Shown in pieces: positions 33,721-55,142 of a DNA stretch of 64,000 bases. The translations under genes were made by a program, and so were the position numbers. The first letter of the stretch is position 1, and each line of letters starts with the position of its first letter. This DNA comes from Antennarius striatus. Lineage: Eukaryota > Chordata > Actinopteri > Lophiiformes > Antennariidae. A model generated the notes under the pieces. That model had not been told where the DNA came from. It saw only the letters and a list, made by a program, of their open reading frames with translations, and made no database searches. The stretch covers positions 21,565,001-21,629,000 of the forward strand of contig NC_090779.1 in the NCBI RefSeq assembly GCF_040054535.1. The letters run 5' to 3'.

Positions 33721-33768
33721 TCATTCATTCATTCATTCATTCATTCATTCATTCATTCATTCATTCAT
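33721..33768. repeat. (TCAT)n microsatellite, 12 units
   Basis: Twelve perfect units here, against four at the same place in the second duplicate (50265-50280). Confidence 0.95.
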
Positions 33769-33769
33769 A

Positions 33770-34916
33770 TTTAAGAAGGAGATGGAGGTGGATAGCGCAT
33801 GTCCTCAGAAAGATGACTACGTGAGAACAGCACTATACTGGACACCAGGGGGCAGAGAAAACGGGCAGGCACAAAGATTCCTGGTGTAGAACAGTGGCGG
33901 GAGAGATGAAAGTAATGGGACATACACTCTTGCCCAAAACAGGCAAGAGTGGAGGTCTTTTGTTACTGTCCTACAAGTCAGTTTGACATGAAAGACAGTG
34001 AGAAGATGAAAAAGAATAAACCATCTTGCCAGAAACCTGGGATCTCTTTCATCACAAATTTTGATCCTCCAAATACTTATTTGTGTTGCAATTTCACGCA
34101 CATGCCCCTTTCACATGAAAAGAATAAAGCACAGTGACACATTAAAGTCAAAGCAAGGAATTCTTTATATTGCATGCACTATCAGAACATCAGCCAAAAT
34201 CGACTAAAGCTTGAAGAATAATCAGAAATTTCTAGGAGGTATGATATCATGTAATTGATATCACTTTATCTTTAATACAAATACATATTTGTCCTTGCAT
34301 TTTCACACAAGGCACATTTTCTTTTATGCAAAAACACAAATCATTGCCTGCCATCCTTAAGATCGCACCTAAGCCAAATGTATGTCATTTATCTGCATAA
34401 GCCATTCGGCCATACTAGAAACAAAAGATATTACATGAAATTTCTCCTGAAATCAAAAATTGATAAATAACACGATACAGTGGAAAACATTAAAAACAAC
34501 AATTTTGAGGCATTGGATTTAGAATGGAAGCCTTTTAATCTGTAAATAATAATGTAAAATAAAGTATTTCAAAGCTTTTCAGTTGACCAAAATGGCCATG
34601 ATGGAGACAAGTGGTACAACAGATTTACACAGTGTATGATTGATATATTGAATATGCTGAAGTTAAAAATGACAAAATCACCAAAAAAAATCTAGAGAGG
34701 ATTAATTATGTATTTGTTAGAATGCATGTCCACTCTTTGCTAAATATTTGTATTCCTAATACATGCATGCTACGTGCTAGTGTAGTCTAACAGATATTGT
34801 TTCAAATGTCTGTTTAATATTTGCTAGGGTGGAATGGGAAATAATTATTTGGATAAGGTCACTGACCTCTAAGCATAGCTTGTTTGTGAACTGATCTGTT
34901 TCTTTTTCACATATAG
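33770..34916. other. Upstream region of copy B
   Basis: AT-rich and without recognised genes. It ends in a splice acceptor (tctttttcacatatag, ends 34916), so a non-coding first exon of copy B must lie somewhere upstream; none could be picked out. The equivalent region at 50282-51430 is nearly identical. Confidence 0.45.
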
Positions 34917-34930
34917 GAGTGCAAAACAAA

Positions 34931-37065
34931 ATGAGGCTTCGTTTTAATCAATGTATCATTGTAACGCTTGCAATGTCTACTCTAGTTGAGGCATTAGACT
35001 ACAAAACAGATCCTCCAATCCGTGCCGGCAATCACTTTGCCTTTATGTGGAATGCTCCAACTGAGCTCTGTGAATCCCGATTCAACTTGCCCCTCAACCT
35101 TATCTACTTTGACTATATCACAAGCCCATTGAGGACAGCAGTCAACCAAACCCTCTCGATGTTCTACATTGATCGTTTTGGTATACATCCCCGCATTGAG
35201 CTTCACAAAAATCTAAGCATAGCTCATATTATTCATGGTGGCCTACCTCAGGTGATAAACATGACTGAGCACCTTCTGCTGGCAGCGAGTGACATTGACA
35301 ACTATATCCCTCCTAACCATGCGGGCCTTGCTGTGCTTGACTTTGAGGAGTGGAGGCCACAATGGATCAGAAACTGGAGACCAAAAGATGTCTATCGAAG
35401 GCTGTCTATAGAATATGTTTACAAAAGGTACAGTTCATTGTCTGAAAGAGAGGCAACGGAAATAGCAAAGGCTGAGTTTGATCAAGCAGCCAAGACTTAC
35501 TTTATTGACTCGATACGCCTTGGTAAGAGACTTCGTCCCGATCGACTCTGGGGTTACTATCTGTTCCCCGACTGCTACAATTATCAATACAAGAATCCAA
35601 AAAATTTTGAAAGCTACACAGGCGAGTGTCTGGACCTCGAGAAATTGAGGAACGATAACCTGAAGTGGCTCTGGAATGAGTCCACAGCAATTTATCCATC
35701 AATCTACCTTGAGCTGGTATTGAAAGACACCATACAAGCTCGACTGTATGTTCGAAATCGCCTTGAGGAGGCCATGAGGTCTTCGGTACTTGCTGAGAGA
35801 AACTTGTCTATCCCTGTGTATGCCTTCATTCGTCCGGTGTACAAGGATTTCACTGACACATACATGTCAGAGGTAAGACACACTTGCACCACTGTTCTCT
35901 CTGTCATACCTAACATATAACTGTTTTTTTTTACCCTATGAATTTGAATAGGAATACCAGATTGGCTAGCATGTTTATAGTTCCACAGGGGAATATGGGG
36001 AGTACTGGTGTGTAAACTGCAGAAATAATACTGGTGCTTTAAGCTGGACTTAAAGCACCAGTATTGTTTCCACGGTTACCTAGAGGCCTATTTTACCTGT
36101 CTTGACAACCAGAAGCAGTAACGGATTCAGCACCAGATTTAATATCTGGTTTGGATTTTAAAGCTTCCATAGCGGAAACCAAGTTTCAGGCTAATCCTAA
36201 CATTAAAGAATTTAATCTAGCCATGAGTCAAATACACATAGTAAAGTAATAAATGGGAAACAACTAAATTAATTTTAGAGAGTTAAGGGATAATTGGACG
36301 TCAGGTTGTTGTTGGTCAAAATAAAAAATAAAAAAAGTAGTCTTGTGTTAATATATTTTAAGTCTTCTGAAAAAGCAAATGTAGAAGAAGAACCTCAGTC
36401 AGTAGGTGAAATCTGCTCTCCATCTTGTTGAATCAATCAGCTCAACTGAAGTTGTTTTCCTGTTCTAATCGTTAGTTTTTGGTCTGTCTGTTTTGTTTGG
36501 CAGTTTGATCTCGTCAACACTATCGGAGAAGCTGCTTCTCTTGGCGTGGCTGGCGTTGTTTCCTGGGGAGACATGAATGTCGCTCGTTCGGAGGTAAGAT
36601 CCAACATCACTGACATCAGGTTTTCTGAACATCATAACAATATGTTACAACGTGTCACTGTCTTTTTATCAAATCCTGTAGGGCTCCTGCAATGATGCTC
36701 GACGTTACCTGAATGAGATTTTGAATGCGTACATACTCAATGTCTCCACTGCAGTGCAAATCTGCAGTGAGTCGATCTGTCAGAACCAAGGCCGCTGTTC
36801 AAGGAAAATATGGGACTCGGACACCTACCTCCACCTGAACAAAACGGAATACCAGATCCATCGGGGGCCCACAAATGATACCTGGGTTGTGAGTGGGAAG
36901 CTCACACAGTTTTACATCGACTGGTTTGACAGCAACTTTGACTGCATGTGCTACACCAAGAAGCCATGCAGATTGATTGCTACAGCCTCAGGGCGCAGTT
37001 TAGTCGCTAACAGATCTATCCTCCTGCTAATGATGCTGACCTTGTATGTTGTGCTGTTCCACTAA
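34931..37065 (+). CDS. spam1-like: SPAM1/PH-20-like hyaluronidase, copy B
   Basis: GH56 hyaluronidase with exons 34931-35872, 36504-36593 and 36682-37065, phase 0, about 471 residues. The first in-frame ATG after the splice acceptor at 34916 is 34931; it begins a signal peptide (MRLRFNQCIIVTLAMSTLVEA). The catalytic motif is VLDFEEWRPQW with D137 and E139. LWGYYLFPDCYNYQY follows. The middle exon keeps WGDMN. The last exon has the EGF-like Cys pattern (CSESICQNQGRCSR, FDCMCYTKKPC) and the hydrophobic tail ILLLMMLTLYVVLF, suggesting a GPI signal. Its non-coding flanks and introns are almost the same as those of copy C, yet the mature proteins are only about 77% identical over the first exon. 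No disabling change was seen. Confidence 0.9.
36027..36065. repeat. Perfect inverted repeat in intron 1 of copy B
   Basis: Arms aatactggtgctttaa and its exact complement (16 bp each) around a 7-base loop, enough for a stable hairpin in RNA. The same structure is at 52543-52581 in copy C. Copy A has only a diverged left arm (near 31333), so the right arm seems to have been gained before the B/C duplication. Confidence 0.9.
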
Positions 37066-37096
37066 AAGCTCAAAATTCTCTTCATAATATTAAGTG

Positions 37097-37560
37097 GGGG
37101 CGGCACGGTGGCGCAGTAGGTAGCACTGTCGCCGCACGCCAAGGCGTTTCCGGGTTCACGTCCCACTCTGTGTGGAGTTTGCATGTTCTCCCCGTGTCTG
37201 CGTGGGTTTTCTCCGGTTTCCTCCCACCCCAAAAAACATCAATTTAGGTTAACTGGCCTGTCCCAAACTGACCGTAGGTGTGAGTGTCAATGCTTGTCTA
37301 TGTGGGTGTCTATGTGTGGCTCCGCGGTGCACTGAGTGGCGGGCAGCTCCTGCTTGGTGCGCCCCAAATGAGCAACTTGTAAGGGGGACGGCGCCTTGCG
37401 GAAGGGTGCCTCGACAGTGCTCCGAAGGTCAGCTGACACCTCCCACTGTCAGCTCACCTTCGGGTGTTTTTTAGGGCGGGAGCGGGAACTGAACCCTGAT
37501 CTCAGAACATTGGATGACCTGCTCTACCGTGCGCTCTACCACTGAGCCACCACCGCCCAA
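37097..37560 (-). repeat. Teleost interspersed repeats, reverse orientation
   Basis: Starts with ggcggcacggtggcgcagta and runs through 'tgtggagtttgcatgttctc', the reverse complement of the family at 270-535. A second block up to about 37560 contains tgcgctctaccactgagcc and is likely an additional repeat. Present at the matching place in the second duplicate. Confidence 0.75.
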
Positions 37561-37605
37561 AAGCCACTGCCGCCCCAATTTCTCTGGATTTCTTTCAGAG
37601 AAAAC

Positions 37606-37817
37606 AATCAATCAACCTTTATTTGTATAGCACTTAATCACATTAAAGACATCAATCTATCGAACCATCCTGAACTGGATTTAGATCATAATCTTAATCC
37701 AGTTCACAAGTTTATTTTAGTTTAGTTTAATTTACCATAACAATGTAGTCCTTTAACCATCAGAAATATAACCTTGCAATGTTGCAATGTTTGAAGCCAG
37801 TGATAATGAAAATGTTT
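37606..37817. other. Short retroelement tail and flank
   Basis: The segment caatcaacctttatttgtat resembles the terminal part of a common fish SINE or LINE. It is followed by ordinary AT-rich sequence up to the RTE insertion. Confidence 0.4.
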
Positions 37818-39094
37818 AAGAACAAGGGAGATGTGCAGAGTTGTGGCAACTACAGAGGAATAAAGCTGATGAGCCATACAATGAAGTTATGGGAGAGAGT
37901 AGTGGAAGCTAGACTAAGGGCAGAAGTGAACATTTGTGAGCAGCAGTATGGTTTCATGCCAAAAAAAGAGTACTACAGATGCAGTATTTGCTTTGAGGAT
38001 GTTGATAGAGAAGTACAGAGAAGGCCAGAGGGAGCTGCATTGTGTTTTTGTAGATCTGGAGAAAGCTTATGACAGGGTGCCCAGAGAGGAACTGTGGTAT
38101 TGTATGAGGAAGTCTGGAGTGGCAGAGAAGTATGTAGAGCGGTGCAGGACATGTATGAGGACTGTAAGACAGTGGTGAGGTGTGCTGTAGGTGTGACAGA
38201 GGAGTTCAAGGTGGAGGTGGGACTGCATCAGGGATCAGCTCTGAGCCCCTTCTTGTTCGCTGTGGTGATGGACAGGCTGACTGACGAGGTTAGACAGGAA
38301 TCTCCATGGACTATGATGTTTGCAGATGACTTTGTGATCTGCAGTGAGAGCAGGGAACAGGTGGAGGACAAGCTAGAGAGGTGGAGGTTTGTCCTGGAAA
38401 GGACAGGAATGAAGGTTAGCCGCAGTAAGACAGAGTACATGTGTGTGAATGAGAGGGACCCAAGTGGAAGAGTGAGGTTACAGGGAGAAGAGATCAAGAA
38501 GGTGGAGGATTTTAAGTACTTAGGCTCAACAGTCCAGAGCAATGGAGAGTGTGGAAAAGAAGTGAAGAAGCGTGTACAGGCAGGATGGAAAGGATGGAGG
38601 AAATGTCAGGTGTGATGTGTGATAGAAGAGTTTCAGCTAAAATGAAAGGAAAGGTACAAAACTGGTGAGACCAGCGATGTTGTTTGGTCTAGAGACAGTG
38701 TCACTGAGGAAAAGACAGGAGACAGAGCTGGAGGTAGCAGAGATGAAGATGCTGAGGTTCTCTCTGGGAGTGACCAGGAAGGATAGGATCAGGAATGAGT
38801 ACATCAGAGGGACAGCACATGTTAGAGGTTTTGGAGATAAAGTCAGAGAGGCCAGACTGAGATGGTTTGGACATGTCCAGAGGAGAGATAGTGAATATAT
38901 TGGTAGAAGGATGCTGAGTTTTGAACTGCCAGGCAGGAGGCCTAGAGGAAGACCAAAGAGGAGGTTTATGGATGTAATGAGGGAAGACATGAAGGTAGTT
39001 GGTGTGAGAGAAGAGGATTCAAAGGACAGGGCTAGATGGAGGAAATTGATTCGCTGTGGCGACCCCTGAAGGGAAAAGCCAAAAGGAAAAGAAG
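37818..39094 (+). mobile_element. RTE-type LINE, 5'-truncated
   Basis: Closely matches the 3' 1.28 kb of the full-length element at 57418-60547. It begins inside the reverse transcriptase domain and includes the FADD catalytic motif (MMFADDFVICSES). Several frame changes break the protein. It ends in the same gaagggaaaagccaaaagg tail. Flanking 15-base sequences at 37803-37817 and 39095-39109 match except for one base and are probably the target-site duplication. It has no counterpart at the matching place of the second duplicate, so it entered afterwards or was lost there. Confidence 0.85.
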
Positions 39095-39149
39095 ATAATA
39101 AAAATGTTTTTAATGTTGTTCTTGCTTTCTTCTGTAAAAATGCTGTTTT

Positions 39150-39635
39150 TTCTTAGTTGGTAATTGGATTCATTAATCTGTATTTGTGATTGTAGATTTT
39201 GAGGTAAATTGTTATTGGCTGCTTTATACATACGTTGTACAGGTTTATAAAGCCCATTCTTCAGCTGTCGAGCTTGTTTAGCGATATCAGCATTCTTTTT
39301 GGTGAGATTCTCATTGATGTAGACGTCTTTTCCTTGCAGTTTAGGGCCTCGTTTCAGAAGAGCAATTTTGAACTTGCGGTTGTAGAACTTTATCAGCACT
39401 GCAGGTGGTCTCCTACCTCCAGATGGTAGTGGGTAACAATCTAGTCCGGCTCGATATTAATCTCCAGGTCCCTCAGTTGAGTAATCACCTGTTGTTCCAC
39501 CGACTCATAATCAGTGCTGTGTACATCTTCCTCTCCTCTGGTCATGGCGTGAGCATAATTTCTCGGCCTAAGTTTGATGCCGGTGATGATCACATCATTT
39601 ATTCAAATGCTTTGCTCAAATTCCTTCATTCTTTT
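39150..39635 (-). mobile_element. Relic of an L1-type LINE ORF1
   Basis: The minus strand encodes the C-terminal part of the ORF1 protein that is more complete at 55143-55792: RRPPAVLIKFYNRKFKIALL-like text is broken here, followed by KRGPKLQGKDVYINENL and QLKNGLYKPVQ. This copy continues past the point where the other is interrupted. Frame changes are present. Confidence 0.7.
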
Positions 39636-39889
39636 GATAGACTTTCAGACCCTTTTCCCGTTCACATCTCCCCACATAATTATCTCTAATTTACAATATT
39701 CTGTTTGCTCAATCCATAAAGAAGTTTTATTGTAAGTTTTGTCAGGAACTACTTTTCTGGATGTGACTCAGGTGACCCAAAATGATGCATAATCCTTTTT
39801 TTCATTCTCATGTTTGATTTTTTTAATACAGACAAATGATTCAATACATTTTCTGAGCTTCTACCCCATGTTTTGCAAGAAGTTGCTTC

Positions 39890-40440
39890 TCATTTCTTAA
39901 ACAACTATTTCAAAAGACACAAGCTGTGGCTAAGGAAATGACGTTAGTCAGTTTGAGAAGGATCAAATCGTTGGGAAGCATCAAGCAGAAACTACTATAA
40001 CAAAGTTAAAAACTGTCCCAACGCATTATTAAAAATTGGAAGATAGTGGAGACCATTGTCTTCAAGGAAGAAATGCGTCCAGAAAAACTCCCTAAATTAT
40101 TGTGATCGGCGATCACTTAAACGTTTGGTGAAATCAACTCAAAGAAAAACAACAGTACAATTCAGGGCAATGTTGAAAAGTAAAAGTACACTACAGAACA
40201 TTTCCACAGGTACAGTGCAAAGGGAACTCAAGGGATTGGGACTGACCGGCTGTGCAGCCTTAAAAAAACCACTAATCAGTGAGGCTATCTGGAAAACAAG
40301 GATTCAGTTTACTAAGAGGTCCAACAAAAATGTTCGAGTTGTGGCCTTTTTTATTGATGATGACTTTTTTTGGGCCAGGGAAAATCTCAGGGATAACCCG
40401 AGATTTTCATCATTTCAATAAAAACTATCGAACGAAATAT
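39890..40440 (+). mobile_element. Tc1/mariner-type transposon relic
   Basis: Degenerate transposase N-terminal half. Text such as RRSLKRLVKSTQRKTTVQF, then STGTVQRELKGLGLTGCAAL and KKPLISEAIWKTRIQF, follows the order of helix-turn-helix and linker segments in Tc1 transposases. The catalytic DDE region is mostly missing. Inverted terminal repeats were not identified. Confidence 0.65.
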
Positions 40441-40508
40441 GTCAAATACTACATCCACAAAGACGCAAAATTGTGTTTTAATGTTCATTCCAATACTATT
40501 TATTTCTC

Positions 40509-41547
40509 TAGTTTCAATTTTGTTCTTATATAGCCCAGATTCACAATGTCTCAAAGGGCTTTACAATCTGCACATGGGTGATATCCCTCTGACCTTTGTG
40601 CACTGCGAGTGTAACTGGCGCAAGACCTAGGGGACTCTGGACCGGCTCATACGATGCACAGGCCAAATACACTGCGAATCGGTGGTTGTGTACTGTGGAT
40701 CAACAGCGGAGCACAAGGATTAATGTCCTCACAAGTAAGTCATTTTATTAATCGATACAACATAAAAAAAACATTTAAATGTTCACCAATAAAAGAAACA
40801 ACCAATAATCTGCAAAACAACAAATAAACAATGGTACAATAAAAGCAAATAAATGAATATTTATCAAAATAATTTAACTGGAACATAAATTAAGGATTAC
40901 CAAAATATCACACCCATACAAACACCCCAACGTAACGACACACACTCGTCAGAAACACACAACCAACTCCACCAACAAGCGCTCTCCATCCACCAGTCAT
41001 CCCGAACACAGAACAGACATCTCCCACTCATCCACACCTGGACAGCCACAACCCAGAGAGCCATCAAATGTTTCTACGGTACCTGCGGATCAACAGCGGA
41101 GCACAAGGATTAACGTCCTCACCAGTAACAAGTCGTTTTATTAATGACTCGCGCCAATAAAGCTTGTGAAGATGCCGCTCCCCTAGATCCCCAGGAGCGC
41201 GCTAGCGCCACCCACTGACTTGGCGTTGCAAGTGCATCCCAGTCACATCCCAGTCTAACATAACTCTCAACAACGTCTCAAAAAAATAAAGGGGGTGCTT
41301 ATTTCCTATTCAAAACTTAACTGATTCTCATCCCCACTACACGAGCAGTACGACCCTCACATCGGATATGGAACAACTCCCCCCAAAACCCTTTTAACAG
41401 GGGGGAAAATGGATGGGAGACACCTCAGGAAGACTGCAGAGGAGGGACCCCTCTTCCAGGAGTGGACAGACGAAGCAATAGATATCGCATGTACAGATTA
41501 ACAACACAATGGTAATAATGACAGTAACAATTACAATAATAAATCTC
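40509..41547. mobile_element. Insertion of about 1 kb, unclassified
   Basis: Absent from the otherwise matching sequence near 63519, so its edges are well defined (within the ambiguous tctc at both sides). Near its left end it has tcacaatgtctcaaagggct, and near its right end cctcaggaagactgcagagg, both typical of fish retroelement ends. It contains two direct repeats of about 55 bp at 40697-40752 and 41087-41142. No protein-coding segment recognised. Confidence 0.65.
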
Positions 41548-41689
41548 ACTTCACGGAAAGATAGAGCCGTTTTGTTTTGAGCCTGTATTGCTGGAATATA
41601 TTTTATATTTTTTATTGATAATGTATTTATTACAAAAATATAAACAGATGTCATATAGTGTTTCATTAATAAACTATTTGTTATTGGTG

Positions 41690-42010
41690 GGGTTACGACC
41701 CACAAGCAGAACACCAGAAGAGAAGTTCATAGTTTAACAAAAAACAAAAGTTGCTACAACAGCTTTCAGGTGAACGAACAAGGAACAGACCAACAGGCAA
41801 AAACCAGGAAACTAATAAAATCTCAAAAAGAAAGCTAAGGAGTACAAAGGGTTGGTGACAATCTGGCAGTACACTGAGGTCTGAGCTGTGTTTAAGTAGG
41901 TAGAGCCTGATTGGAGATGGGAAGCAGGTGGCTGTAGCAACACAGGTGACCGGAATGAGTGGATTGAGTGGGAGCGAACCGTGGGTACAGAGGACAGGAG
42001 GGAAAACTTC
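41690..42010. repeat. Interspersed repeat within the AT-rich block
   Basis: A non-AT-rich island (tacgacccacaagcagaac to aggacaggagggaaaactt) that interrupts the AT-rich repeat array. Also found at 63659-63976. Probably an inserted element older than the duplication. Class unknown. Confidence 0.5.
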
Positions 42011-42680
42011 ATTAAAAATAAATATATAGTCTATTATAAAAACATCATATAGTGTTTTACAGATAAATTACTCATTAAAAACAAATATGTAGTCTTTTAT
42101 TCATGGTCTATTATAAAAAAAATAGCATAGTCTTAAATGAAATATTCAAACAAATATTATATTGTGATTTTGATAAACTGTGTTTTATTCATAGTCTATT
42201 ATAAGCAAATTTCATGAAGTGTTTTATTGATAGACTAAACTATTATAAACAAATATAGTGTTTTATTGGTCTATTTATTGTAAAAACAATTTACTATGTG
42301 GTGTTTTAGAGACATACAATTTAAAATGATTACATTTACAGTGTTTTAGTGACAACTTATATATAATAAGTAATATATAATGTTTTATTGATTAATGATT
42401 TTTAACACATAGTGTATTTTCTCTTTATGATTAACAAATACAGTACAGTGATTTATGGATAAATTTAATTTAATTTAATTTAATTTAATATACTGTTTTG
42501 ATCCCCGAAGGGAAATTAAGATGAACCATAAATAAACTATTGATAAAAAACAAATATACTGTTTTATGGGTAGTCTATAACAAACAAATATTGTTTAATT
42601 GATCTTTACATTTCCCAGTTTGGGTTGAATAAAGTATATCTATCTATTACAAAAAATTTCATACAATGCTTTATTGGTAA
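42010..42680. repeat. Degenerate AT-rich tandem repeat
   Basis: Recurrent variants of 'agtgttttattgatagtcta' and 'attataaacaaatat' at roughly 50-60-base spacing. It continues leftward to about 41600 on the other side of the island. The unit is too diverged to define exactly by eye. Confidence 0.6.
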
Positions 42681-42889
42681 CCCATCTGATCTATGTCATA
42701 CAGCCTGCGCTTTGATCTGTGGTCTTTGTTAAAGGCATACCCACAAAATTACTTACATACTGAGGGACACGTGCAATTATAATATAGATGGAAAGAATCA
42801 TCTGTAAATATTCTTCTATATTGGATCACATGAGATGTATAGATAAACTGATAACAGGGAGCTCAGGAGACCAACATCTTCTTCCACTT

Positions 42890-43205
42890 TCGCAGGTCAC
42901 GGGTGTTCCTGGAGCCTGGACTTATGGGTGAGAGGCAGGGAACACTCTGGGCACAACGCCGGTGCACTGCAGAGCCACACAAAAGACAAACAACCACTCA
43001 CGCACGCACTCACACCTACAGGCAATTTGGAACCAACCAATCCACCTGAAACACATGTTTTTGGAGGTGGGAGGAGGCCGGAGATCCCAGAGAGAACCCA
43101 CACAGACAAGGGGAGAACATACAAACACCACAGAGAACAGGAACTGAACCTGGAACCGTTTTGCTGCGAGCCGACAGCGCTACCCACTGCGTCGACGTGC
43201 CACCC
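42890..43205 (+). repeat. Teleost interspersed repeat, copy
   Basis: Same block order as 270-535, ending in 'gacagcgctacccactgcg'. Confidence 0.75.
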
Positions 43206-43774
43206 CATTACAAATCAACTGGCATCAAATCAACTTGTGTCTGTAAATGTGCAGCTAGCTCTAATTTATCAAATATGTTTTTTTTAATATGTCTGTACTG
43301 GTGTTTGGAACAGAAGAATATTATCCAGCTCTGTCCCATCCTGGGTATTTTGGTTGCCGTGGAGGCCTGGCTCATGTCCACCAATCAGGGGGTGGTGATC
43401 CTGGACCTCCCAGTACATCAGTCTCATTCCAGGGCACAGCCCTGGGAGCAGCTGGAAGAAGGTCAGGCTGTCCAGCAGCACAGCCTCAGTTTCCGTGTTG
43501 GACCATTGTTTCTTAATGAATGGGGATGTCTAATTACTGGAACAGGAACTGAGGTTGCCAGTGTTCTGTACAAAAGATTTGAACACGCAAGTTTTGGTGC
43601 CAGAAGAAAAAATGAAGGGCAAATAGATAATTAGAGTACAATGTGGTTTACATACAGAGTCCTTTCGGTGAGTTTGTGATGAACGAGAATGTTTTTTATT
43701 ATCCAGACCATGAATCTGCGAGGCGTGTTCAGTTTTGATCCTTCCTTTGATGAAATAAAAATGTTTAGAAATAA
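43206..43774. other. Unassigned stretch
   Basis: Contains moderately GC-rich sequence with a frame of 157 codons beginning in the preceding repeat (43161-43634). No domain or family was recognised. It may be repeat-derived. Confidence 0.35.
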
Positions 43775-45640
43775 TTACAAGTTGGGAAGGTGGGGGACTC
43801 ATCATTTACACCAACAACCGTTGGTGTAACCACGGCCATGTATCAGTGAAGGCGGTTGTACGTTGCCCTAACCTAGAACTGCTGGCCGTTAGCATACGGC
43901 CATACTATTTACCTCGGGAGTTAAGTCACGTGATCTCCCTCTGTGTTTACATCCCTCCATGGGCCAACACATGCAAGAAGATCACTAGTGTCGTGGCCAC
44001 AAAGCCAGGACCAGAACTGAGGAGGGAGGGGTGCAGAGGGCCAATGACCTGAATGTCTTTTTCAATAGGTTCAACCAGGCCCCCCTGCACCAACCCCTAT
44101 CACCCTCCACCCTCAAGACCTCAGCAGCAGCTCACCAGCCTCACACCCATCCCATGCCCCCTCTCCTCCTCCAAGGCAGCAAAGTGGCCCCTACCCACAC
44201 CCCCACCACATACCCCTCCCCCCAGGCCCGCCCTCCTCCATCCAACCTCCCGACATAGCCTCAACTCATCTCTAGTTACAGAGTAGTTTTCAAGTGTCTT
44301 TAATACCATCCAGCCCTGTATACCGTAGGACAAACTCTCACAAATGCGAGCAGACCCCGCCCTGGTTGTCTGGATCCATGACTACCTCACCAACAGACCA
44401 CAGTTCGTCAGGCTAAAGGATTCCACGTCTGATACTGTGGTCAGCTGCATCGGTGCTCCACAGGGGACTGTCTTGTCCCCAATCCTCTTCACCCTGTACA
44501 CGGCGGACTTCTGCTACAACTCAGAACTGTGTCACAACCAGAAGTTCGCAGATGACATAGCCATTGTGGGATGTATCAGGGACAATGAGGAGGAGGAGTA
44601 TAGATGCGTGGTGATGGACTTTGTTGACTGATGTCACAGCAACAGTCTGCAGCTCAACACCTCCAAAACTAAAGAGCTGGTCATTGACTTCAGAAGGGGC
44701 AGACCCCAACCTAGACCAGTTCTGATAGGAACGGAGGAGGTGGAGATTGAGCAGACCTATAAATATCTTGGGCTGTTGCTAGACAACAAGCTAGACTGGA
44801 CCAGCAACACGAGGCAGCTGTATACGGAAACACAGAGCAGGATGTACTTTCTTAGGAGGCTGAGGGCATTCAACATTTGCAGGAAGCTCCTGTGGATGTT
44901 CTATCAGTCTGTGGTCGCCAGCGTCCTGTCTTACGCTGTGGTGTGTTGGGGAGGGAGTGTGACCAAGGCAGATCTCTCCAGGCTGGAAAAGCTGATCAGG
45001 TGGGCCGGCTCTGTGGTCAGGATGAAGCTGGACCTTCTGGCAACGGTGGCGGAGAAGAGAATATTGGACAAACTGCTGGACATCATGGACAATGTCAGCC
45101 ACCCTCTGCACACCGTTACCAACAACCAGAGGAGCCTAAGAAACCTGAGCAGCCAGAGGCTGCGCCTCCCAACATGCCAACAGACTGAAGAACTCCTTTA
45201 TCCCCCGAGCCATTAAATTGCTCAACTCCTCTCTGGGGGAGGTGAAGAAAAAGACAGTCCGCACCAGGGCGGAGGGATGACAATAAATAAATAAATAAAT
45301 TTACCAAACAATGTAAACAATACACACACTGCCTATGCCTATCCATGTCTATTTATTCATGCCTTTTATTCCTTAGGTCATTTATGTCTCTGTATTTGTG
45401 TATTCTCTTTATTTAGTGGGTTATTATTATTTATATTCTCTCTATCTGGTGGGTTATTTATTTATTACTGTTTCTTTTTGGTGTTGGCATTACTTTCTGT
45501 GTGTCTTTTCTTTCTGTGTACTCACTGTGCTGTGTGTAATGTGACAGAGGAATTAATTTCCCTGATGGAACCTCCTGAAGGGATGAATAAAGTCCTACTC
45601 TACTCTCTCTACTCGCTCTCTCTACTAAGATCGTCCAAAT
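43775..45640 (+). mobile_element. Rex1/Babar-like LINE, internally deleted
   Basis: The left part (43780-43975) reads as a LINE endonuclease segment: IRPYYLPRELSHVISLCVYI followed by PPWAN. After a proline-rich stretch the reverse transcriptase follows (44344-45216): GAPQGTVLSPILFTLYTADF, then KFADDIAIVG with the catalytic DD, and later YKYLGLLLDNKLDW. A stop at 44629-44631 and missing endonuclease/RT sequence show it is dead. It ends with gggatgaataaagtcctac and a short CTCTACT repeat, a typical LINE 3' end. The clade is given from the overall look and not from alignment. Confidence 0.8.
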
Positions 45641-45844
45641 ATCGGTCTTGTTCCAAGATTATGATGTTGTGACGTGAATTTAGATGTCAGATGGTTTGAT
45701 GACCGTGATAAAACACAGCTGATTAATTTTGATGCTCCCTTGACTGGCTGGAATTCTACTTGCATCTGAACATGGTACTGCTAAAGTACTGTTTTTCTAT
45801 TTTATTTTTGTTTATCATTTTGGCAACTAAATTAAAACAATATT

Positions 45845-46175
45845 CATCCATTCATCTATTCTTCCATCTTCAGCTGCTTATCCAAATCCAAGTCGCACTT
45901 ACACTTGAGTCTATAGTAGCTGAATTGCAAGCGAGAAGCAGGGTATACCTTGGACAAGTCGCCTGTTTATCACAGGGCCACACAGACAGTCTAACACTCA
46001 CACTCACACCTACAGGCAATGTGGTGTCACAAACCCACCGACGTTACATGTTTTTGGAGGTGGGGGGAAGCTGGATAACCCAGAGAGAACCCACCCACAC
46101 AGGGAGAACATACAAACTCCACACAGAAAGGAATCGAACCCAGAACCCTCCAACTATGAGGCGACAGTGCTGCCT
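45845..46175 (+). repeat. Teleost interspersed repeat, copy
   Basis: Same family as 270-535: ccattcatctattcttccat start, 'gtcgcctgtttatcacaggg' block, 'tgtttttggaggtgggggg', end near 'gaggcgacagtgctgcc'. Confidence 0.75.
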
Positions 46176-46518
46176 ACATCTCTCCTCACATCTCTCTTTT
46201 TCTCAACATGAAATTGATTGATTGAATTATCTGAAGTTTAAAAGATTTGTAATCATATCTATATCTACAGTATTAAAATATGTCATGAACGCACAAAAAC
46301 ATGAGTGAGAAAGGAAAACGCTATAAACTAATACCGACTGTTTCTTCATACCTAACATTCTATAAACAGTGAAGTCAGTACTCTAAACTCAGCGGTTTGA
46401 AGTTCATTTCTTTAAAGTTTTTTTAAAAATGCACCTGATATGTCAACATGTCCACTAATCAAATTCATAGTCATGTCAGAAGGTCAGAACAAGCTCCGCC
46501 CCTCTCTGAGGTCCGACT

Positions 46519-46824
46519 TCAGCAGCGTGTCCCCCCAATGGGGTAAGAAGCGGAGTTGGGCATCTCCCGGCGCACAGTGTTGAACGGTGACAGCTCCAAC
46601 TCGGTGGTGGGGCATTCGTTATCGCTGTCGCTGGCGGCGGTGGCGGGTGAACCGTGCAAGCCACACTCATCACAGCAGCAACAACAACAGTCCAGGAACG
46701 CTCTGGTGAACAGCTGGCACAGGAAGAACAGCAACACCGGCGTCACCGCAGACTTACAGAAGAGCAGCAGTTGGCTGACCAGCTGCAGGATACTCAGAGT
46801 CACCCTGAGAATGCTGGCGGCCAT
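46519..46824 (-). CDS. Hypothetical small membrane protein, doubtful
   Basis: A 101-codon frame with a GC-rich composition unlike its surroundings. It starts at an ATG followed by GCCGCC. The first 45 residues are hydrophobic (LSILQLVSQLLLF, then VTPVLLFFLCQLF), suggesting a membrane segment or two. A run of six Cys follows, then an acidic, Ser-rich tail ending in GGTRC. The Cys run comes from a CAG/CAA-like repeat, which weakens the case. I do not recognise a family. It could be a single-exon gene, an exon of a larger gene, a retrocopy, or chance. Confidence 0.3.
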   Translation of the reverse strand: MAASILRVTLSILQLVSQLLLFCKSAVTPVLLFFLCQLFTRAFLDCCCCCCDECGLHGSPATAASDSDNECPTTELELSPFNTVRREMPNSASYPIGGTRC

Positions 46825-46908
46825 TTAGGCATTATATTTAGAAATAGTGAAAAAAGGACAGAACTGTAAGAATCAAATTTGGGTCACCTGCAAAACAATC
46901 AACCATCA

Positions 46909-47942
46909 CTGGGCTTGCACTAGGAGGTAGTATGACTAAGCCACTGTGGCTCAGTGTAAAAGAATTGAGTAAGCCACAAAAAGCCACACTCTGTGTCCAA
47001 GATAGCGGCTGGCTGTAATAGCAAGTAAAACTTACAAGTAAACATTGACTAATACCAAGAATCAAATTTATTAAAATCAAAGTGTCTAAGTCAAAGTTAA
47101 AATGTCTTGTAGTACAAGTAAAACTTACAAGTAAACATTGAGCAATATTTTGTATGGCTGTATGTTCACATAGTGAATGCAAGTTTTCAATTGAGAGTGT
47201 AAAACCACACTTGACATAGGGGGGTGTGGGGGGATACCCCCCTGCATGGGGGATCGGAGGGCTCCCCCGGGAAATTTTTTAGAAAATGGGGTTGTTTTCC
47301 TGCATTCTGGTGCATTCTGAGGGCAAAATCTTCTGTTCAGTTTACCTACAAAAATACACTAAAGTCAACAGTTCAAGCTGAACTATCTTTATTTCTGTCC
47401 TACTTTATGCAGGTATAAATGTGATATTCAACAATTGAAAACTTGCATTCATTTACCTTCTGATCGGTCTGTCACAACTCCTAACCCCTCTCAGCATTCA
47501 CAATTTGTTGTTCAATTAGAATTTTAATGCAATATCTACTATAGAACACTCTATTCTCATTTTCTTTCAATCGATCGTCCTCGCCTTGTCGTACACCAAT
47601 TCGCGGGTTTAGCTTGTAAAAAAAGAATCTTTTTGTTTTTCATTGGACGAGAGGAGGTCATGACCCGAGTGCATATTTAATGATCGGGAGCTTTTGCGTC
47701 ACTTCGGGTATTTCCGTCGGCTATTTCCGTTGGCTATTTCCGTCGGCATGCTTCAGCTAAATTCCGTCGGCATGCGGAAATAGAGACGCCGGCGGAAATA
47801 GCGGCGCTAGCGAGCGAAAAAGTATTAAGTTTTAGCCTTTTTTCCATAAAAATAAGAACGTCACTGTGGCTACACAGTCTAAAAACCTTTTAGCCAATCT
47901 GGAATTTACTTCGCCTACGGCGAATGGCTAGCGCAAGCCCAG
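46909..47942. mobile_element. Non-autonomous DNA transposon, 1,034 bp
   Basis: Begins CTGGGCTTGCACTAG and ends CTAGCGCAAGCCCAG. The termini are inverted repeats of 15 bp with one mismatch. It is flanked by catca at 46904-46908 and 47943-47947, and the uninterrupted site at 18421-18425 carries catca once, so a 5-bp target duplication is directly supported. No transposase is encoded. Internal features are a 27-bp direct repeat near 47020 and 47115, a 20-bp inverted repeat, and tatttccgtcgg-type repeats near 47709-47810. The superfamily is not clear. Confidence 0.8.
47174..47451. repeat. Inverted repeat nested in the TIR element
   Basis: Perfect 20-bp arms at 47174-47193 and 47432-47451. They could mark a second, nested element of 278 bp or a structural feature of the host element. 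No target duplication was seen. Confidence 0.6.
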
Positions 47943-48196
47943 CATCATGTTTCATCAGATATACTTTCCTGGTTTAAATCAGATCCTGTGTTCAGCCGAC
48001 AGTGTGTGCAAATCCTGACAAGTCGCCAGCTCATTGTGGGGCAATGATATGTCTTTTGAAAAAGCTTATTTACAGGAATTATCTCAGTCAGGAGGTGAAA
48101 TCCACATTGTGGTTCTCTCTGTCTTTAATTGATCACCTCAACTTAAGTTGTTTCCTGCTCTGTCTTTTTTTTTTGTGTCTCTGGTCCGTTCGGCAG

Positions 48197-48788
48197 TTCG
48201 ATGTCGTCAACACTATCGGAGAAGCTGCTGCTCTCGGCGCCACTGGCATTATTTCCTGGGGAGACATGAACGTCACCAGCACAGATGTAGGATCTGACAT
48301 CACTCTCAGGTTTTCTGAAAATCATAGCAATATGTTAGCAGTGATTGTCTAATAAGTGTCAAATCTTGTAGGACACCTGCTATGATGCTCGTCAGCACCT
48401 GGATCAGGTCATGAATCCGTACATAGTCAATGTCTCCAAGGCAACGCAACTCTGCAGTGAGGCACTCTGCCAGAACCAAGGCCGCTGTGTGAGGAAACAA
48501 TAGGACATGGACGTCTTCCTCCACCTGGACCCCATGCATTACCAGATCCATCGGCAGCATGGACAGCAGCATCCAGTCACATCATGGACTGTGACTGGAA
48601 GCCTCTCACAGTTTGACATCGACTGGTTTGACAGCCACTTTGACTGCATGTGCTACCACCAGATGCCAAGCAGATCGGTGATGACAAACAACACCGTTGA
48701 AGAATCTTTGCTGAAGGATGGTGGCACTGACAGATCTCGCCCCCTGCTGGTGATGATACTGCTCTGCCTGACGTGTGCTGTGCTGTGA
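48197..48788 (+). pseudogene. SPAM1-like hyaluronidase fragment (last two exons only)
   Basis: Duplicated from copy A: exons at 48197-48286 and 48372-48788 correspond to its second and third coding exons. There is no first coding exon, because the duplicated segment begins inside intron 1. The middle exon and its splice sites are intact. In the last exon a TAG at 48501-48503 replaces a Trp codon, and the Cys of the MPC motif has become Ser. A small in-frame length change (about four codons more) lies near 48560. It cannot make an active enzyme because the catalytic exon is missing, although transcription or splicing to another first exon is not excluded. Confidence 0.9.
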
Positions 48789-49789
48789 ATATACAAACAC
48801 AAAACAATACTGTTGCTGTATAAGATGTCTGATTGGAGGGAGTCAGAAGATAAGTTCCAAAGTTCTTGCAGTTTATTATAATTTTTTATGTTATAGTTGT
48901 TTATCTGTTTTACCTGCCTTTCCATTAATTTAGTTTAGCCAGTTTTCTCAGTCTCATTTTAACCTTTTTAGAAGGTGCCATCCTGCTCAGTCTTCACTCT
49001 CTGCCAATGTCTTCAAGCCTTGTCTACTAGCCAATCAGCTACAAGCCAGCTCAAACCTGTGATTTGTTTCTGATTTACGTGAATATTCCAACCAGTTTTA
49101 TTTTGTCTTTGCCAGACTTTTTGGCTGAGCCACTGCCTGCTGTCTATCGCACATTTGAATGTTTTTGGACTACTTAGATTATGACTTGTGCCTGTTTTCT
49201 GATTGTGCCTCAGCCTTACGTCTCTTTACCTCTGCCTGGAATCTGAACATTCCAGATTGCCTCTCTAGACACCTTAGACATTAGAAATGTCATATTGACT
49301 ACCATTAAAATCACATTTTTAATCTCCCGGCCATGTAATCCATAATGTAAGCATTTCATTGTGAAGAAAATGAGGGATTTTTGACATTTTTATTGTATCC
49401 CACCAGGTTCTGCTTTTTTCCATTGTAGGCTGATGCATGAATGTCTTGATTTTGGAGCCATGTGACTCCCAGGGATCCCTAAGAGTGTTTTTGGGGCATG
49501 TGCTAGGGTTACAAGCACATACCCCATCTCTTCGGGAACACCCTCTCTTGGTAGGTTTTAGAGGACTCCCACTCAGGATGGACTGATTTCCACTCGACCT
49601 CCAGGAGATTCAAGTCTCAGTCTAGAAGTCAGGAAAGCCTTGAATTAAATCCTATGGCATACACAATATTTGCAGTAATTCAAACCTGATATAATGTATT
49701 ACGTATTAAAGACAATACAACAGAAAACATATTGTATTATTCAGAGATCAGCATTAATCAGCATTTTGGGACATTTTTGTAGCTGAAGG

Positions 49790-50185
49790 TTTGTCCAGTC
49801 CTTCAGTTCCAGATCAGATCAAATCCTGAACAGCCTCGAGTACCACTTCTTCTCTTCCTTCTGGATTTGGGCCTCAACTTCCTCGAACTGGAAGATCAAG
49901 GTCTTCTTGTTTTCCAACTCCTGCGCTTTCTATAGCAGAGTGGTCTTCAGAGACTCTGTCTCTGGGAGGAGGAATGAATTTCCTCTTTTCACTGGGTCTG
50001 GTAGCTTCTGGACTCCTGTTCCTTCTACATCAGCGCGTGTTTGAGCTCTAGTTGGTCCTTGAGAGCGACAGCTTCTCCTCCTGGCAGTTCACCTCACTGG
50101 TCTGAAAGAGAAGTTCAGCCTCTTTTGTGTGTTGCTGTCCGTTGGGGTGACGGTGGGGCTGGGTTTCACACCCAGTTCATCAAAA
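49790..50185 (-). pseudogene. Coiled-coil relic, second copy
   Basis: Duplicate of 33235-33625, with the same stops and frame changes plus a few small differences. It was already broken before the duplication. Confidence 0.5.
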
Positions 50186-51444
50186 CATAAACACACCTTT
50201 TATTAGAGTCTTTGATGTGTTGTTGCGAGGATAGTAGTTTGCACCAGAATACCCTGATTTTCACTCATTCATTCATTCATATTTAAGAAGGAGATGGAGG
50301 TGGATAGGACATGTCCTCAGAAAGATGACTACGTGAGAACAGCACTATACTGGACACCAGGGGGCAGAGAAAACGGGCAGGCACAAAGATTCCTGGTGTA
50401 GAACAGTGGCGGGAGAGATGAAAGTAATGGGACATACACTCTTGCCCAAAACAGGCAAGAGTGGAGGTCTTTTGTTACTGTCCTACAAGTCAGTTTGACA
50501 TGAAAGACAGTGAGAAGATGAAAAAGAATAAGCCATCTTGCCAGAAACCTGGGATCTCTTTCATCACAAATTTTGATCTTCCAAATACTTATTTGTGTTG
50601 CAATTTCACACACATGCCCCTTTCACATGAAAAGAACAAAGCACAGTGACACATTAAAGTCAAAGCAAGGAATTCTTTATATTGCATGCACTATCAGAAC
50701 ATCAGCCAAAATCGACTAAAGCTTGAAGAATAATCAGAAATTTCTAGGAGGTATGATATCATGTAATTGATGTCACTTTATTTTTAATACAAATACATAT
50801 TTGTCCTTGCATTTTCACACAAGGCACATTTTCTTTTATGCAAAAACACAAATCATTGCCTGCCATCCTTAAGATCGCACCTAAGCCAAATGTATGTCAT
50901 TTATCTGCATAAGCCATTCGGCCATACTAGAAACAAAAGATATTACATGAAATTTCTCCTGAAATCAAAAATTGATAAATAACACGATACAGTGGAAAAC
51001 ATTAAAAACAACAATTTTGAGGCATTGGATTTAGAATGGAAGCCTTTTAATCTGTAAATAATAATGTAAAATAAAGTATTTCAATGCTTTTCAATTGACC
51101 AAAATGGCAATGATAGAGCCAAGTGGTACAACAGATTTACACAGTGTATTATTGATATATTGAATATGCTGAAGTTGAAAATGACAAAATCACCAAAAAA
51201 ATCTAGAGAGGATTAATTATGTATTTGTTAGAATGCATGTCCACTCTTTGCTAAATATTTGTATTCCTAATACATGCATGCTACGTGCTAGTGTAGTCTA
51301 GCAGATATTGTTTCAAATGTCTGTTTAATATTTGCTAGGGTGGAATGGGAAATAATTATTTGGATGAGGTTACTGACCTCTAAGCAAAGCTTGTTTGTGA
51401 ACTGATCTTCTGTTTCTTTTTCACATATAGGAGTGCAAAACAAA

Positions 51445-53564
51445 ATGAGGCTTCGTTTTAATCAATGTATCATTGTAACGCTTGCAATGTTTACTCTTGT
51501 TGAGGCATTTGACTACAGAACAGATCCTCCAATCCGTGCCGGCAATCACTTTGCTTTTCTGTGGAATTCTCCAACTGAGCTCTGTGAATCCCAATTCAAC
51601 TTGCCCATCAACCTTACCTACTTTGACTATATCGCAAGCCCATTGAGGACAGTAGTCAACCAATCCATCTCGATGTTCTTCGTTGATCATTTCGGTATAC
51701 ATCCCCGCGTGGAGTTTGACAGAAATCTAAGCGTAGATCGTATTATTCATAATGGCGTACCTCAGCTGATAAACTTGACTGAGCACCTTCTGCTGGCAGC
51801 GAGTGACATTGTCAACTATATCCCTCCTAACCATGTGGGCCTTGCTGTGCTTGACTTTGAGGATTGGAGGCCACAGTGGGTCAGAAACTGGGGAACAAGA
51901 GACATTTATCGACAGCTGTCTATAGACTCTGTTTACGAAAGGTACAGTTCGTTGTCTAAAAGAAAGGCAATGCAAATGGCGATAGATGAGTTTGATCAAG
52001 CATCCAAGGCTTACTTTCTTGAAACATTACGCCTTGGTAAGAGACTTCGTCCCGATCGACTCTGGGGTTACTATCTGTACCCCGACTGCTACAATTATCA
52101 ATACAAGGAACCACACAAATTTGACAGCTACACAGGAGAGTGTCCGGACGAGGAGATATTGAGGAACGATAACCTGAAGTGGCTCTGGAATGAGACCACA
52201 GCAATTTATCCATCAATCTACCTTAAGCTGGTGCTGAGAGAAACCAATCAAGCTCGACTGTATGTTCGGAAACGCGTGGAGGAGGCCCTGAGGTGTTCAG
52301 TACTTGCTGAGAGAAACGTGTCTGTCCCTGTGTATGCCTTCGTTCGTCCAGTGTACAAGGACTACAGTGACACATACATGTCAGAGGTAAGACACACTTG
52401 CACCACTGTTCTCTCTCAGTCATACCTAACATATAACTGTTTTTTTACCCTATGAATTTGAATAGGAATACCAGATTGGCTAGCATGTGTTTATAGTTCC
52501 ACATGGGAATATGGGGAGTACTGGTGTGTAAACTGCAGAAATAATACTGGTGCTTTAAGCTGGACTTAAAGCACCAGTATTGTTTCCACGGTTACCTAGA
52601 GGCCTATTTTACCTGTCTTGACAACCAGAAGCAGTAACGGATTCAGCACCAGATTTAATATCTGGTTTGTTTCAATTTTCAGGCTAATCCTAACATTAAA
52701 GAATTTAATCTAGCCATGAGTCAAATACACATAGTAAAGTAATAAATGGGAAACAACTAAATTAATTTTAGAGAGTTAAGTGATAATTGGACGTCAGGTT
52801 GTTGTTGGTCAAACTAAAAAATAAAAAAACATGAGTAGTCTTGTGTTCATGTATTTTAAGTCTTCTGAAAAAGCAAATGTAGGAGAAGAACCTCAGTCAG
52901 TAGGTGAAATCTGCTCTCCATCTTGTTGAATCAATCAGCTCAACTGAAGTTGTTTTCCTGTTCTAATCGTTAGTTTTTGGTCTGTCTGTTTCGTTTGGCA
53001 GTTTGATCTCGTCAGCACTATCGGAGAAGCTGCTTCTCTTGGCGCCGCTGGCGTTGTTTCCTGGATAGACGAGGATATTGCTCGTTCGGAGGTAAGATCC
53101 AACATCCCTGACATCAGGTTTTCTGAACATCATAACAATATGTTACAACGTGTCACTGTCTTTTTTATCAAATCCTGTAGGAAACCTGCAAAGATGCTCA
53201 ACGGTACCTGGATGAGATTTTGAATCCGTACATAATCAATGTCTCCACTGCAGTGCAAATCTGCAGTGAGGCGATCTGTCAGAACCAAGGCCGCTGTTCA
53301 AGGAAAATACGGGACTCGGACACCTACCTCCACCTGAACGAAACGGAATACCAGATCCATCGGGGGCCCCCAAATGATACCTGGGCTGTGAGTGGGAACC
53401 TCACACAGTCTTACATCGACTGGTTTGACAGCAACTTTGACTGCATGTGCTACACCAAGGAGCCATGCAGAGTGATTACTGCATCTTCAGGGCGCAGTTT
53501 AGTCGCTAACAGATCTATCCTCCTGCTAATGATGCTGACCTTGTATGTTGTGCTGTTCCACTAA
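51445..53564 (+). CDS. spam1-like: SPAM1/PH-20-like hyaluronidase, copy C
   Basis: GH56 hyaluronidase with exons 51445-52386, 53002-53091 and 53181-53564, phase 0, about 471 residues. The ATG follows a splice acceptor ending at 51430. Its first 15 codons are identical to copy B at the nucleotide level. The catalytic motif is VLDFEDWRPQW with D137 and E139, and LWGYYLYPDCYNYQY follows. The middle exon reads SWIDEDIARSE where copy B has SWGDMNVARSE, an unusual change in a very conserved place. The EGF-like domain (CSEAICQNQGRCSR, FDCMCYTKEPC) and hydrophobic tail are intact. No stop or frameshift was seen, so it is likely functional, perhaps with altered substrate or partner binding. Confidence 0.9.
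52543..52581. repeat. Perfect inverted repeat in intron 1 of copy C
   Basis: Same 16-bp arms and 7-base loop as at 36027-36065. Confidence 0.9.
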
Positions 53565-53590
53565 AAGCTCAAATTTCTCTTCATAATAAG

Positions 53591-53860
53591 TGGGGGCGGC
53601 ACGGTGGCGCAGTAGGTAGCACTGTTGCCGCACACCAAGGCGTTTCCGGGTTCGCGTCCCACTCTGTGTGGAGTTTGCATGTTCTCACCGTGTCTGCGGT
53701 TTCTCCAGCTTCCTCTGACCCCAAAAATATCAATTTAGGTTAACTGGCCTGTCCCAAACTGACCGTAGGTGTGAGTGTCGATGCTTGTCTATGTGGGTGT
53801 CTATGTGTGGCTCCGCGGTGCACTGAGAGTGGCGGGCAGCTCCTGCTTGGTGCACCCCAA
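53591..53860 (-). repeat. Teleost interspersed repeat, reverse orientation
   Basis: Counterpart of 37097-37370 in the second duplicate, with a short deletion near 53695. Confidence 0.7.
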
Positions 53861-53871
53861 ATGAGCAACTT

Positions 53872-54100
53872 AATAATAATAATAACCATTACTTTAATTG
53901 TCCCTCTTGGGGAAATGCGTTTTACACATCACACTTCACATATACATATGTGTTAATTACACACACAGCAGTTACAGGCCCCAGAACACAGCACACACTA
54001 GGGGCCTGTAGGCATGCAGTTAGTATAGAGAGGACATACAGAGGTACAAGGAGGCAGAGTGACGGGTCACGCACGAGGGTCACGCCCCAATGAGCATCTT
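53872..54100. mobile_element. Small retroelement insertion in the second duplicate only
   Basis: About 229 bp absent at the matching place near 37378. It starts with (TAA)n and contains tgtccctcttggggaaatgc. Near-identical sequences ending 'aatgagcaactt' and 'aatgagcatctt' flank it, consistent with a target-site duplication. Confidence 0.55.
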
Positions 54101-54656
54101 GTAGGGGACTTGTGGGGGGACTGCGCCTTGCTCAAGGGCGCCTCTCAAGGGCACCTCTCTCAAGGGAGCCTCGGCAGTGGCTGGGAGGTGAGCTGACGCC
54201 TCCTACCGTCGGCTCACACTCCGATGGTTCTTCTGGCGGGAGCGGGAATTGAGCCCCTGATCTCAGAACATTGGTTGACCCGCTCTACCGTGCACTTTAC
54301 CACTGAGCCACCACCGCCCAAAAGCCACTGCTGCCCCAATTTCTCTGGATTTCTTCCAGAGAAAACAATCAATCGACCTTTATTTGTATAGCACTTCATC
54401 ACATCAAAGACATTATCTTTTGCACCATCCTGAACTGGATTTAGATCATAATCTTAATCCAGTTCACATTTCACAACAGCTCCCCGTGACCCGCTGCGGA
54501 GGATATGGCAGTGGTAATCTGAAGATAACTAACTAACAACATTTTAGTTTAGTTTAGTTTAATTCGCCATAACAATGTAGTTAGTTGGTAATTGGATTCA
54601 TTAATCTGTATTTATGATTGTAGATTTTGAGGTAAATTGTTATTGGCTGCTTCATG

Positions 54657-55142
54657 CATCCAATCCAATCCAATCCAAACTTTATTTGTTGAGCACTTTA
54701 CCACAACCGCAGTCGACCAAAGTGCTGTACAGGCGAATGAATAAAAAAGAACAAACATTATAGATAAAAGACAAAATGGCTCAAATATTATAAGTAAAGT
54801 TAATCAACTAAAAACATAAAACATAAAATTGCTGATTTGCTGAGGCAGATTGTTCCACAATTTGGGTGCCACAACAGCAAAGGCACGGTCCCCTCTGAGC
54901 TTCTGTTTGGTTTTAGGCACATTCAGGAGCAGCTGATCAGCTGACCTGAGAGAGCGAGCAGGTGCATAGCGGTGTAGAAGCTCAGAGAGGTAAGGTGGGG
55001 CAAGGGCATTCAGGGATTTAAAAGTAAATAAAAGAATTTTTAAATGGATTCTAAAATGTATGGGCAGCCAGTGGAGTGAGGCTAAAATGGGGGTAATGTG
55101 CTCATGTTTACGGGTGCTGGTCAACAGACGTGCAGCAGCGTA
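54657..55142 (-). mobile_element. L2-type LINE 3' fragment
   Basis: The minus strand encodes the C-terminus common to fish L2-group reverse transcriptases: HITPILASLHWLPIHFRIHL, then LNALAPPYLSELLHRYAPAR and DRAFAVVAPKLWNNLP. It ends in (ggatt)n-like repeats at 54657-54674, as expected for an L2 3' terminus. It is inserted in the L1-type ORF1 relic. Confidence 0.8.

Follow-up and report, generated by a model that had tools for sequence, protein, structure and literature searches.

Divergence concentrated in the mature-protein coding sequence of two tandem PH-20-like hyaluronidase genes of Antennarius striatus

We analysed a stretch of 64,000 nucleotides from the genome of Antennarius striatus (the window; positions 21565001-21629000 of contig C4, NC_090779.1, in a 548-Mb assembly of 42 contigs) that contains three SPAM1/PH-20-like hyaluronidase copies, termed A, B and C, together with two genes which we take to be HYAL4-like and HYAL6-like (Table 1). 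All of these copies have a GH56 Pfam match in their first exon. Our subject is the pair B and C, whose gene models of three exons each were fixed by GT/AG splice sites, with copy A serving as their outgroup. When spliced, both cover positions 4-334 of the 335 of the PF01630 profile, a complete GH56 domain, and both carry the catalytic D-x-E motif as DFE at 137, YPSIY at 255 and a tryptophan at 335, the identities of the catalytic residues (D-x-E, Tyr, Trp) presumably being those of HYAL1. Compared with solved chains, the protein of copy C (GH56 E=1.1e-117) scores 371 bits with PH-20 (9jub_A, E=6.3e-110), 281 with HYAL1 and 148 with the bee enzyme, and exon 1 of B is likewise closest to PH-20; by these matches B and C can be classed as PH-20/SPAM1-like GH56 proteins, with PH-20 the closest among solved hyaluronidases. 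A hydrophobic C-terminal tail is visible in the translation and bears on a possible glycosylphosphatidylinositol (GPI) anchor; its limits, as well as those of the signal peptide, were placed by eye from the sequence.

Of 472 codons, 98 specify different amino acids in the two genes (73/314, 6/30 and 19/128 in the three exons, counting the stop codon in the last), and at 15 codons the difference is purely silent (14, 0 and 1). An initial annotation of this DNA, made from sequence alone, had arrived at the same amino-acid counts with 127 codons in exon 3, and at about 14 silent codons. At the nucleotide level the exons differ at 99/942 (10.5%), 10/90 (11.1%) and 22/384 (5.7%) positions, compared to 37/2652 (1.40%) for the intergenic DNA upstream, 10/606 (1.65%) for intron 1 and 1/88 (1.14%) for intron 2. 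The non-coding divergence of 1-2% given in that annotation thus holds for the introns and intergenic DNA, and is exceeded in the 3′ flank, where 13/303 positions directly beyond the stop codons differ, and in the tail of intron 1 of A (7/169). When near non-coding DNA is pooled, omitting the 3′ flank, 56/3600 positions differ (1.56%), and nonsynonymous sites differ far more often (p=1.8e-31). A sliding comparison in 150-bp windows, a check that had been suggested earlier, shows exon peaks that stand out clearly, with sharp shifts near the splice sites: the last difference in exon 1 lies 19 bp before its end, those in exon 2 begin 14 bp in and end 12 bp before the exon end, and those in exon 3 start 2 bp in.

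The limits of the divergent stretch are those of the mature protein rather than of the exons as such. The first 15 codons are identical, as previously noted, the first difference falling in codon 16; codons 1-21 differ at 2/63 positions and the last 26 codons at 0/78, so that the cleaved parts together (2/141) are well below the mature part (129/1275; p=1.6e-4), and the signal peptide and tail resemble introns. A control comes from A and its truncated copy A′, which lie in the same duplicated unit and are free of selection on B and C, and whose exon 2 differs at only 2/90 positions. We reject an exon-specific mutation rate on the low divergence of the cleaved coding ends and of this exon 2; exon 3 of A and A′, at 18/405, is not low.

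Table 1. Features of the hyaluronidase locus, in window positions
Feature	Position	Strand	Description or basis
Copy B	34931..37065; exons 34931-35872, 36504-36593, 36682-37065	+	471 aa, hydrophobic C-terminal tail; GH56 E=6.7e-120, residues 32-368
Copy C, accelerated copy	51445..53564; exons 51445-52386, 53002-53091, 53181-53564	+	471 aa
Mature-protein coding span of B, codons 22-446	34994..36987	+	Holds nearly all B-C coding differences, 129/1275 coding bases
Copy A, SPAM1/PH-20-like hyaluronidase	30238..32243; exons 30238-31164, 31664-31753, 31839-32243	+	Frame open across junctions; GH56 Pfam match in exon 1
A′, truncated copy of A, pseudogene	48018..48788	+	Exons 2 and 3 only; alignment to A, translation
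A-B intergenic DNA	32244..34930	+	37/2652 different from counterpart 48789-51444
Tandem unit, first copy (A tail, intergenic, B, repeat-rich downstream part)	31487..46831	+	Self-comparison with flank
Tandem unit, second copy (A′, intergenic, C, downstream)	48018..64000, continuing ~5.3 kb past the window, to 69330 of window plus flank	+	
Presumed HYAL4-like and HYAL6-like genes	1057-3616 and 19572-22026 (approximate)		Upstream of A

Both genes belong to a tandem unit that extends past the limits given in the initial annotation, with 31487-46831 matching 48018-69330 piecewise (in the numbering of the window plus flank), and A′ sits within the same unit as C. In addition to missing exon 1, A′ carries an early stop codon in exon 3 as well as one changed cysteine codon. 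When 32250-34900, 41544-42674, 42663-43755 and 46216-46831 were searched against the genome, (near-)full-length matches among the candidates scored (the best 40 of 578 for the second piece and the best 40 of 6252 for the third) were confined to the two units, and repeat fragments were found elsewhere for three of the four. Three pieces of the downstream part differ between the units at 34/1114 (3.05%), 22/1090 (2.02%) and 26/611 (4.26%) positions. Their sum of 82/2815 (2.9%) is above near non-coding DNA (p=2.5e-4), which fits an older duplication than the gene-proximal DNA would suggest. Six collinear downstream blocks, three of them checked for copy number, differ at 156/4294 positions, a sum that leaves out 37066-37378 (13/305), 37402-37708 (35/306), 37812-39095 (35/1283) and 39231-39585 (11/355), two of which are out of order between the units and the others beside a break in homology.

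The second unit contains the reading frame of a long interspersed nuclear element (LINE) reverse transcriptase (57972-60302, RVT_1, 776 aa), and a related piece lies at 37812-39095, out of order relative to the rest of the unit. Intron 1 of B (36027-36065) and of C (52543-52581) holds a perfect palindrome with 17-base arms and a 5-base loop, across the right arm of which the alignment of copy A is gapped; hairpins of this kind can promote breaks and conversion. Outside the window, other hyaluronidase-like matches are found on contig C5, near 10.28-10.31 Mb and 12.35 Mb.

Silent divergence between B and C is not at the level of the introns. By the Nei-Gojobori method 24/310 silent sites differ (nonsynonymous divergence dN 0.104, silent divergence dS 0.082, ratio 1.27), about five times the near non-coding value (p=4e-9), so that the earlier description of little silent change, though right as a count of codons, is incomplete. 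In a three-taxon codon model the maximum likelihood dS for B plus C lies near 0.073 (B 0.048, C 0.025), and the loss of fit remains below 3.84 over a range whose lower limit falls between 0.04 and 0.05 and whose upper limit is about 0.11. Fixing dS at the intron level of 0.0156 is rejected (p=2.4e-8), as is 0.0257 (p=5.1e-5), which allows for faster silent change by a factor of 1.65, the ratio of A-B dS (0.50) to A-B divergence in intron 1 (0.303). Silent divergence at intron level is therefore rejected with or without scaling, and the introns are not as divergent as the silent sites. A young duplicate under positive selection is thus an incomplete account. A dS of 0.0495, corresponding to 3.0% downstream divergence multiplied by 1.65, is not rejected (p=0.094), and one of 0.03, the downstream value unscaled, is (p=4e-4); exon silent divergence fits the scaled downstream yardstick, and neither the near one nor the unscaled downstream one.

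The silent changes are also unevenly placed. Silent divergence is 8.3% in codons that also change an amino acid, 7.3% at 1-3 bp from the nearest amino-acid change, 9.5% at 4-6 bp and 5.1% at 7-12 bp, and there are 0 silent changes in the 65 sites beyond 12 bp. We examined distance thresholds of 5, 8 and 12 bp. Considering codons without an amino-acid change, 0 silent changes fall in 102 effective sites more than 8 bp away (p=8e-4 under 7%), and 4 fall in the 151 sites beyond 5 bp, which is below 7% (p=0.02) and compatible with 1.56% (p=0.21). A test that needs no threshold gives a mean distance from silent to amino-acid change of 4.5 against 10.3 expected (p=0.002; 0.0025 on repeating, 0.010 for the mature part only). 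Corresponding tests for A-B (p=0.09) and A-C (p=0.43) are not significant. With silent changes bunched near amino-acid changes, uniformly old exons are unlikely, and the unevenness makes simple selection on a young pair unlikely as well; either divergence peaks around protected sites or clustered mutation fits the placement.

The amino-acid changes fall mainly on one branch. In the 462 codons shared by all three copies, the branch omega (the ratio of nonsynonymous to silent rates) is 3.1 on the branch of C, compared to 0.61 on that of B and 0.59 on that of A; that of C is above 1 (p=0.008), that of B is not distinguishable from 1 (p=0.28), and B and C jointly give 1.48, not significantly above 1 (p=0.097). 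Polarising the changes by A assigns 57 nonsynonymous and 8 silent changes to C, compared to 28 and 10 to B, with 14 nonsynonymous and 3 silent changes unassigned, 6 of mixed type and 4 codons in gaps of A; the relative-rate test on 57:28 gives p=0.002. Derived changes in both genes had been noted previously, and are present in both, though asymmetrically. Diversifying selection on the mature enzyme, proposed for the pair and to be checked by dN/dS, is supported for copy C only, with B changing at the ordinary rate of the family.

Relaxed constraint does not explain these changes. In exon 1 they affect 10 of 85 positions conserved in A and the HYAL4-like and HYAL6-like genes, compared to 56 of 209 others (p=0.005), and we reject loss of constraint since the changes avoid positions conserved in other paralogues. 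Together with the intact catalytic motif, this makes both B and C look like working enzymes. Relative to B, copy C gains two glycosylation motifs (at 56 and 417) and a cysteine at 284, and 31 of the 98 changes alter charge, with a mature net charge of -3 for B and -14 for C. Since both copies retain this motif, we lean towards altered surface recognition or substrate handling in C with catalysis kept. A predicted structure of C exon 1, made with five window sequences, has a mean predicted local distance difference test (pLDDT) score of 60.9, too low for mapping changes to the surface. Immediately after Trp 335, presumably a substrate-binding residue, C reads IDEDI (53065-53079) and B reads GDMNV (36567-36581), with four of the five residues changed.

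The best reading of these results, to which we give a probability of roughly one half, is that copy C is acquiring a new function and that gene conversion evens out DNA in which no amino-acid difference is at stake. A tandem duplication that took in the tail of A, the complete gene B with the intergenic DNA before it, and the downstream part would have produced the dead fragment A′ and the gene C. Interlocus gene conversion between the units would since have held most gene-proximal DNA, including the stretches that encode the cleaved signal peptide and tail, at about 1.5%, and selection for a changed C enzyme would have purged those conversions that erased useful amino-acid differences. Silent sites beside the protected differences would then be sheltered, giving rise to divergence peaks, with C the neofunctionalising copy and B continuing at the ordinary family rate. 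The change in C may have been driven by a part in gamete interaction, by use as a secreted, skin or venom enzyme, or by a shift in substrate. Conversion confined to non-coding DNA had been put forward as an alternative to selection; it fits better when the two are joined. Conversion and the gained function are the steps that we infer beyond the observed contrasts in divergence, the excess on C and the concentration in the mature span.

Several observations weigh against this explanation. The homogenisation is deduced from rate contrasts within the genome of one species, and the heterogeneity between B and C is modest (p=0.037 for omega; p=0.11 by Fisher's test on nonsynonymous and silent counts). 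No unusually long identical runs are found in near non-coding DNA (longest 303, expected 289), the divergence of which becomes 69/3903 (1.8%) when the 3′ flank is included, and this flank (13/303) is an exception to the low flanks around the silent peaks. Exon 3 of A and A′ lies above the introns, much of the difference coming from one 12-bp indel patch. The lack of silent changes beyond 8 bp requires either very short conversion tracts or another cause of clustering, since with long tracts the sites beyond 8 bp would stay unconverted too. Additionally, the divergence of the downstream pieces ranges from 2.0% to 4.3%, and as these contain repeats their evolution may be faster; 42663-43755 alone (2.0%) is near the gene-proximal value. 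The silent 24/310 is above the unscaled downstream 82/2815 (p=8e-5), and the match thus depends on the factor of 1.65.

The most serious rival, which we consider a minority possibility worth retaining, is that the duplication was recent and that positive selection acted strongly on C and to some extent on B; the silent extras would then come from multinucleotide or clustered mutations, and conversion would be unnecessary. This account directly explains why silent changes lie only a few bases from amino-acid changes, with none beyond 12 bp (or 8 bp in unchanged codons), and gains from the 17 codons that hold two or three changes (12.3 expected, p=0.07) and the 9 pairs of differences within 6 bp in near non-coding DNA (4.9 expected, p=0.04). 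However, adjacent differences in coding DNA are not in excess (15 against 13.2, p=0.34), and the higher downstream non-coding divergence is left unexplained. By a rough estimate, a companion mutation would be needed for about one in two amino-acid substitutions; such companions usually accompany a few per cent of substitutions.

A further reading, improbable in our view, has B and C as two old and functionally distinct sperm-type hyaluronidase lineages, with continuing selection holding them apart over almost all of the mature protein while the surrounding DNA was mostly homogenised, an arms race on a GH56 enzyme like that of the major histocompatibility complex (MHC) or of gamete recognition. 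Age of another kind would come from a duplication that joined two long-balanced alleles, as in the MHC, the exon differences being older and the introns and flanks kept alike by allelic recombination. With such alleles, silent divergence would be expected to be high around selected sites and the flanks to show ordinary diversity (about 1.5%), yet divergence that rises away from the gene (82/2815; 156/4294) is the reverse of an allelic peak, and an amino-acid excess on C only is not necessarily expected of them, so that we hold this to be doubtful.

We regard it as very unlikely that the assembly has placed two haplotypes of a single B gene in tandem. A non-coding divergence of 1.5% is within what we take to be the range of heterozygosity in fish, but the second unit is without exon 1 of A and carries the pseudogene A′, the junction lies in gapless sequence (zero N across the window and 40 kb) of the 548-Mb, 42-contig assembly, and the flank after the second unit has no counterpart for most of the 1.2 kb that precede the junction; an exon peak between haplotypes would in any case still require balancing selection. 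Least credible of all is that a diverged third paralogue replaced the exon sequence of B or C and spared the introns, for instance via complementary DNA (cDNA), an import also raised in the initial annotation and suggested by differences that begin and end near splice sites, given that silent divergence is uneven (0 in 102 sites), that 57 nonsynonymous to 8 silent changes on C is unlike a constrained donor, and that no fourth close copy was found by searching the genome with B exon 1 DNA (3 matches, A, B and C only) or protein (14 matches, the best after A, B and C only 43%).

The initial annotation had likened the pair to the accelerated exons of venom genes. In venom phospholipases, duplicates show lower intron divergence and many amino-acid changes, with silent sites at about intron level. 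As far as the excerpts of the papers cited here extend, duplicated small serum protein genes of snakes also combine numerous amino-acid changes with introns that have diverged less (PMC6609765). The likeness to these systems is in exons that exceed introns; the difference is that here silent divergence is about five times that of the introns, whose level it is shown to exceed (p=2.4e-8 to 5e-5), and that omega is clearly above 1 on one branch only. The paralogues GOT1p1 and GOT1p2 of the copepod Tigriopus likewise have islands of divergence despite gene conversion, though in a different enzyme, with population data and, in the excerpt, with no connection to the limits of a mature protein (PMC3728101).

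Fish hyaluronidases are described as mostly under negative selection, episodic selection being reported at 18 sites (PMC6315956), and some PH-20-like ones occur in the venom of bony fish (PMC4448160; for their relatedness PMC6315956). The excerpts of these studies share the PH-20-like enzymes with ours, and a tandem pair with an exon peak is absent from them. Among the matches listed in our literature search, titles and abstract openings gave no recognisable hyaluronidase case of the exon-peak pattern, and neither did the excerpts of a venom review (PMC12737323). The pair B and C points to rapid change in a fish PH-20-like enzyme, from the group that has the bony-fish venom hyaluronidases among its relatives (PMC6315956). 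As a clean natural case it allows positive selection on a young duplicate to be separated from selection that resists gene conversion, two readings of fast exon evolution which are often confused, and with divergence limits that approximate those of the mature protein, the target of selection can be read from the DNA.

In the tandem red and green opsins of primates, the introns are alike and an exon carrying sites that alter function stands out as a divergence peak, which is interpreted as selection opposing conversion (PMC3924837). The likeness lies in similar introns combined with a peak at function-changing sites. The opsin peak, however, is one exon around two sites and was compared with a second species, whereas the one described here spans the mature protein across three exons, in one species, with one fast copy.

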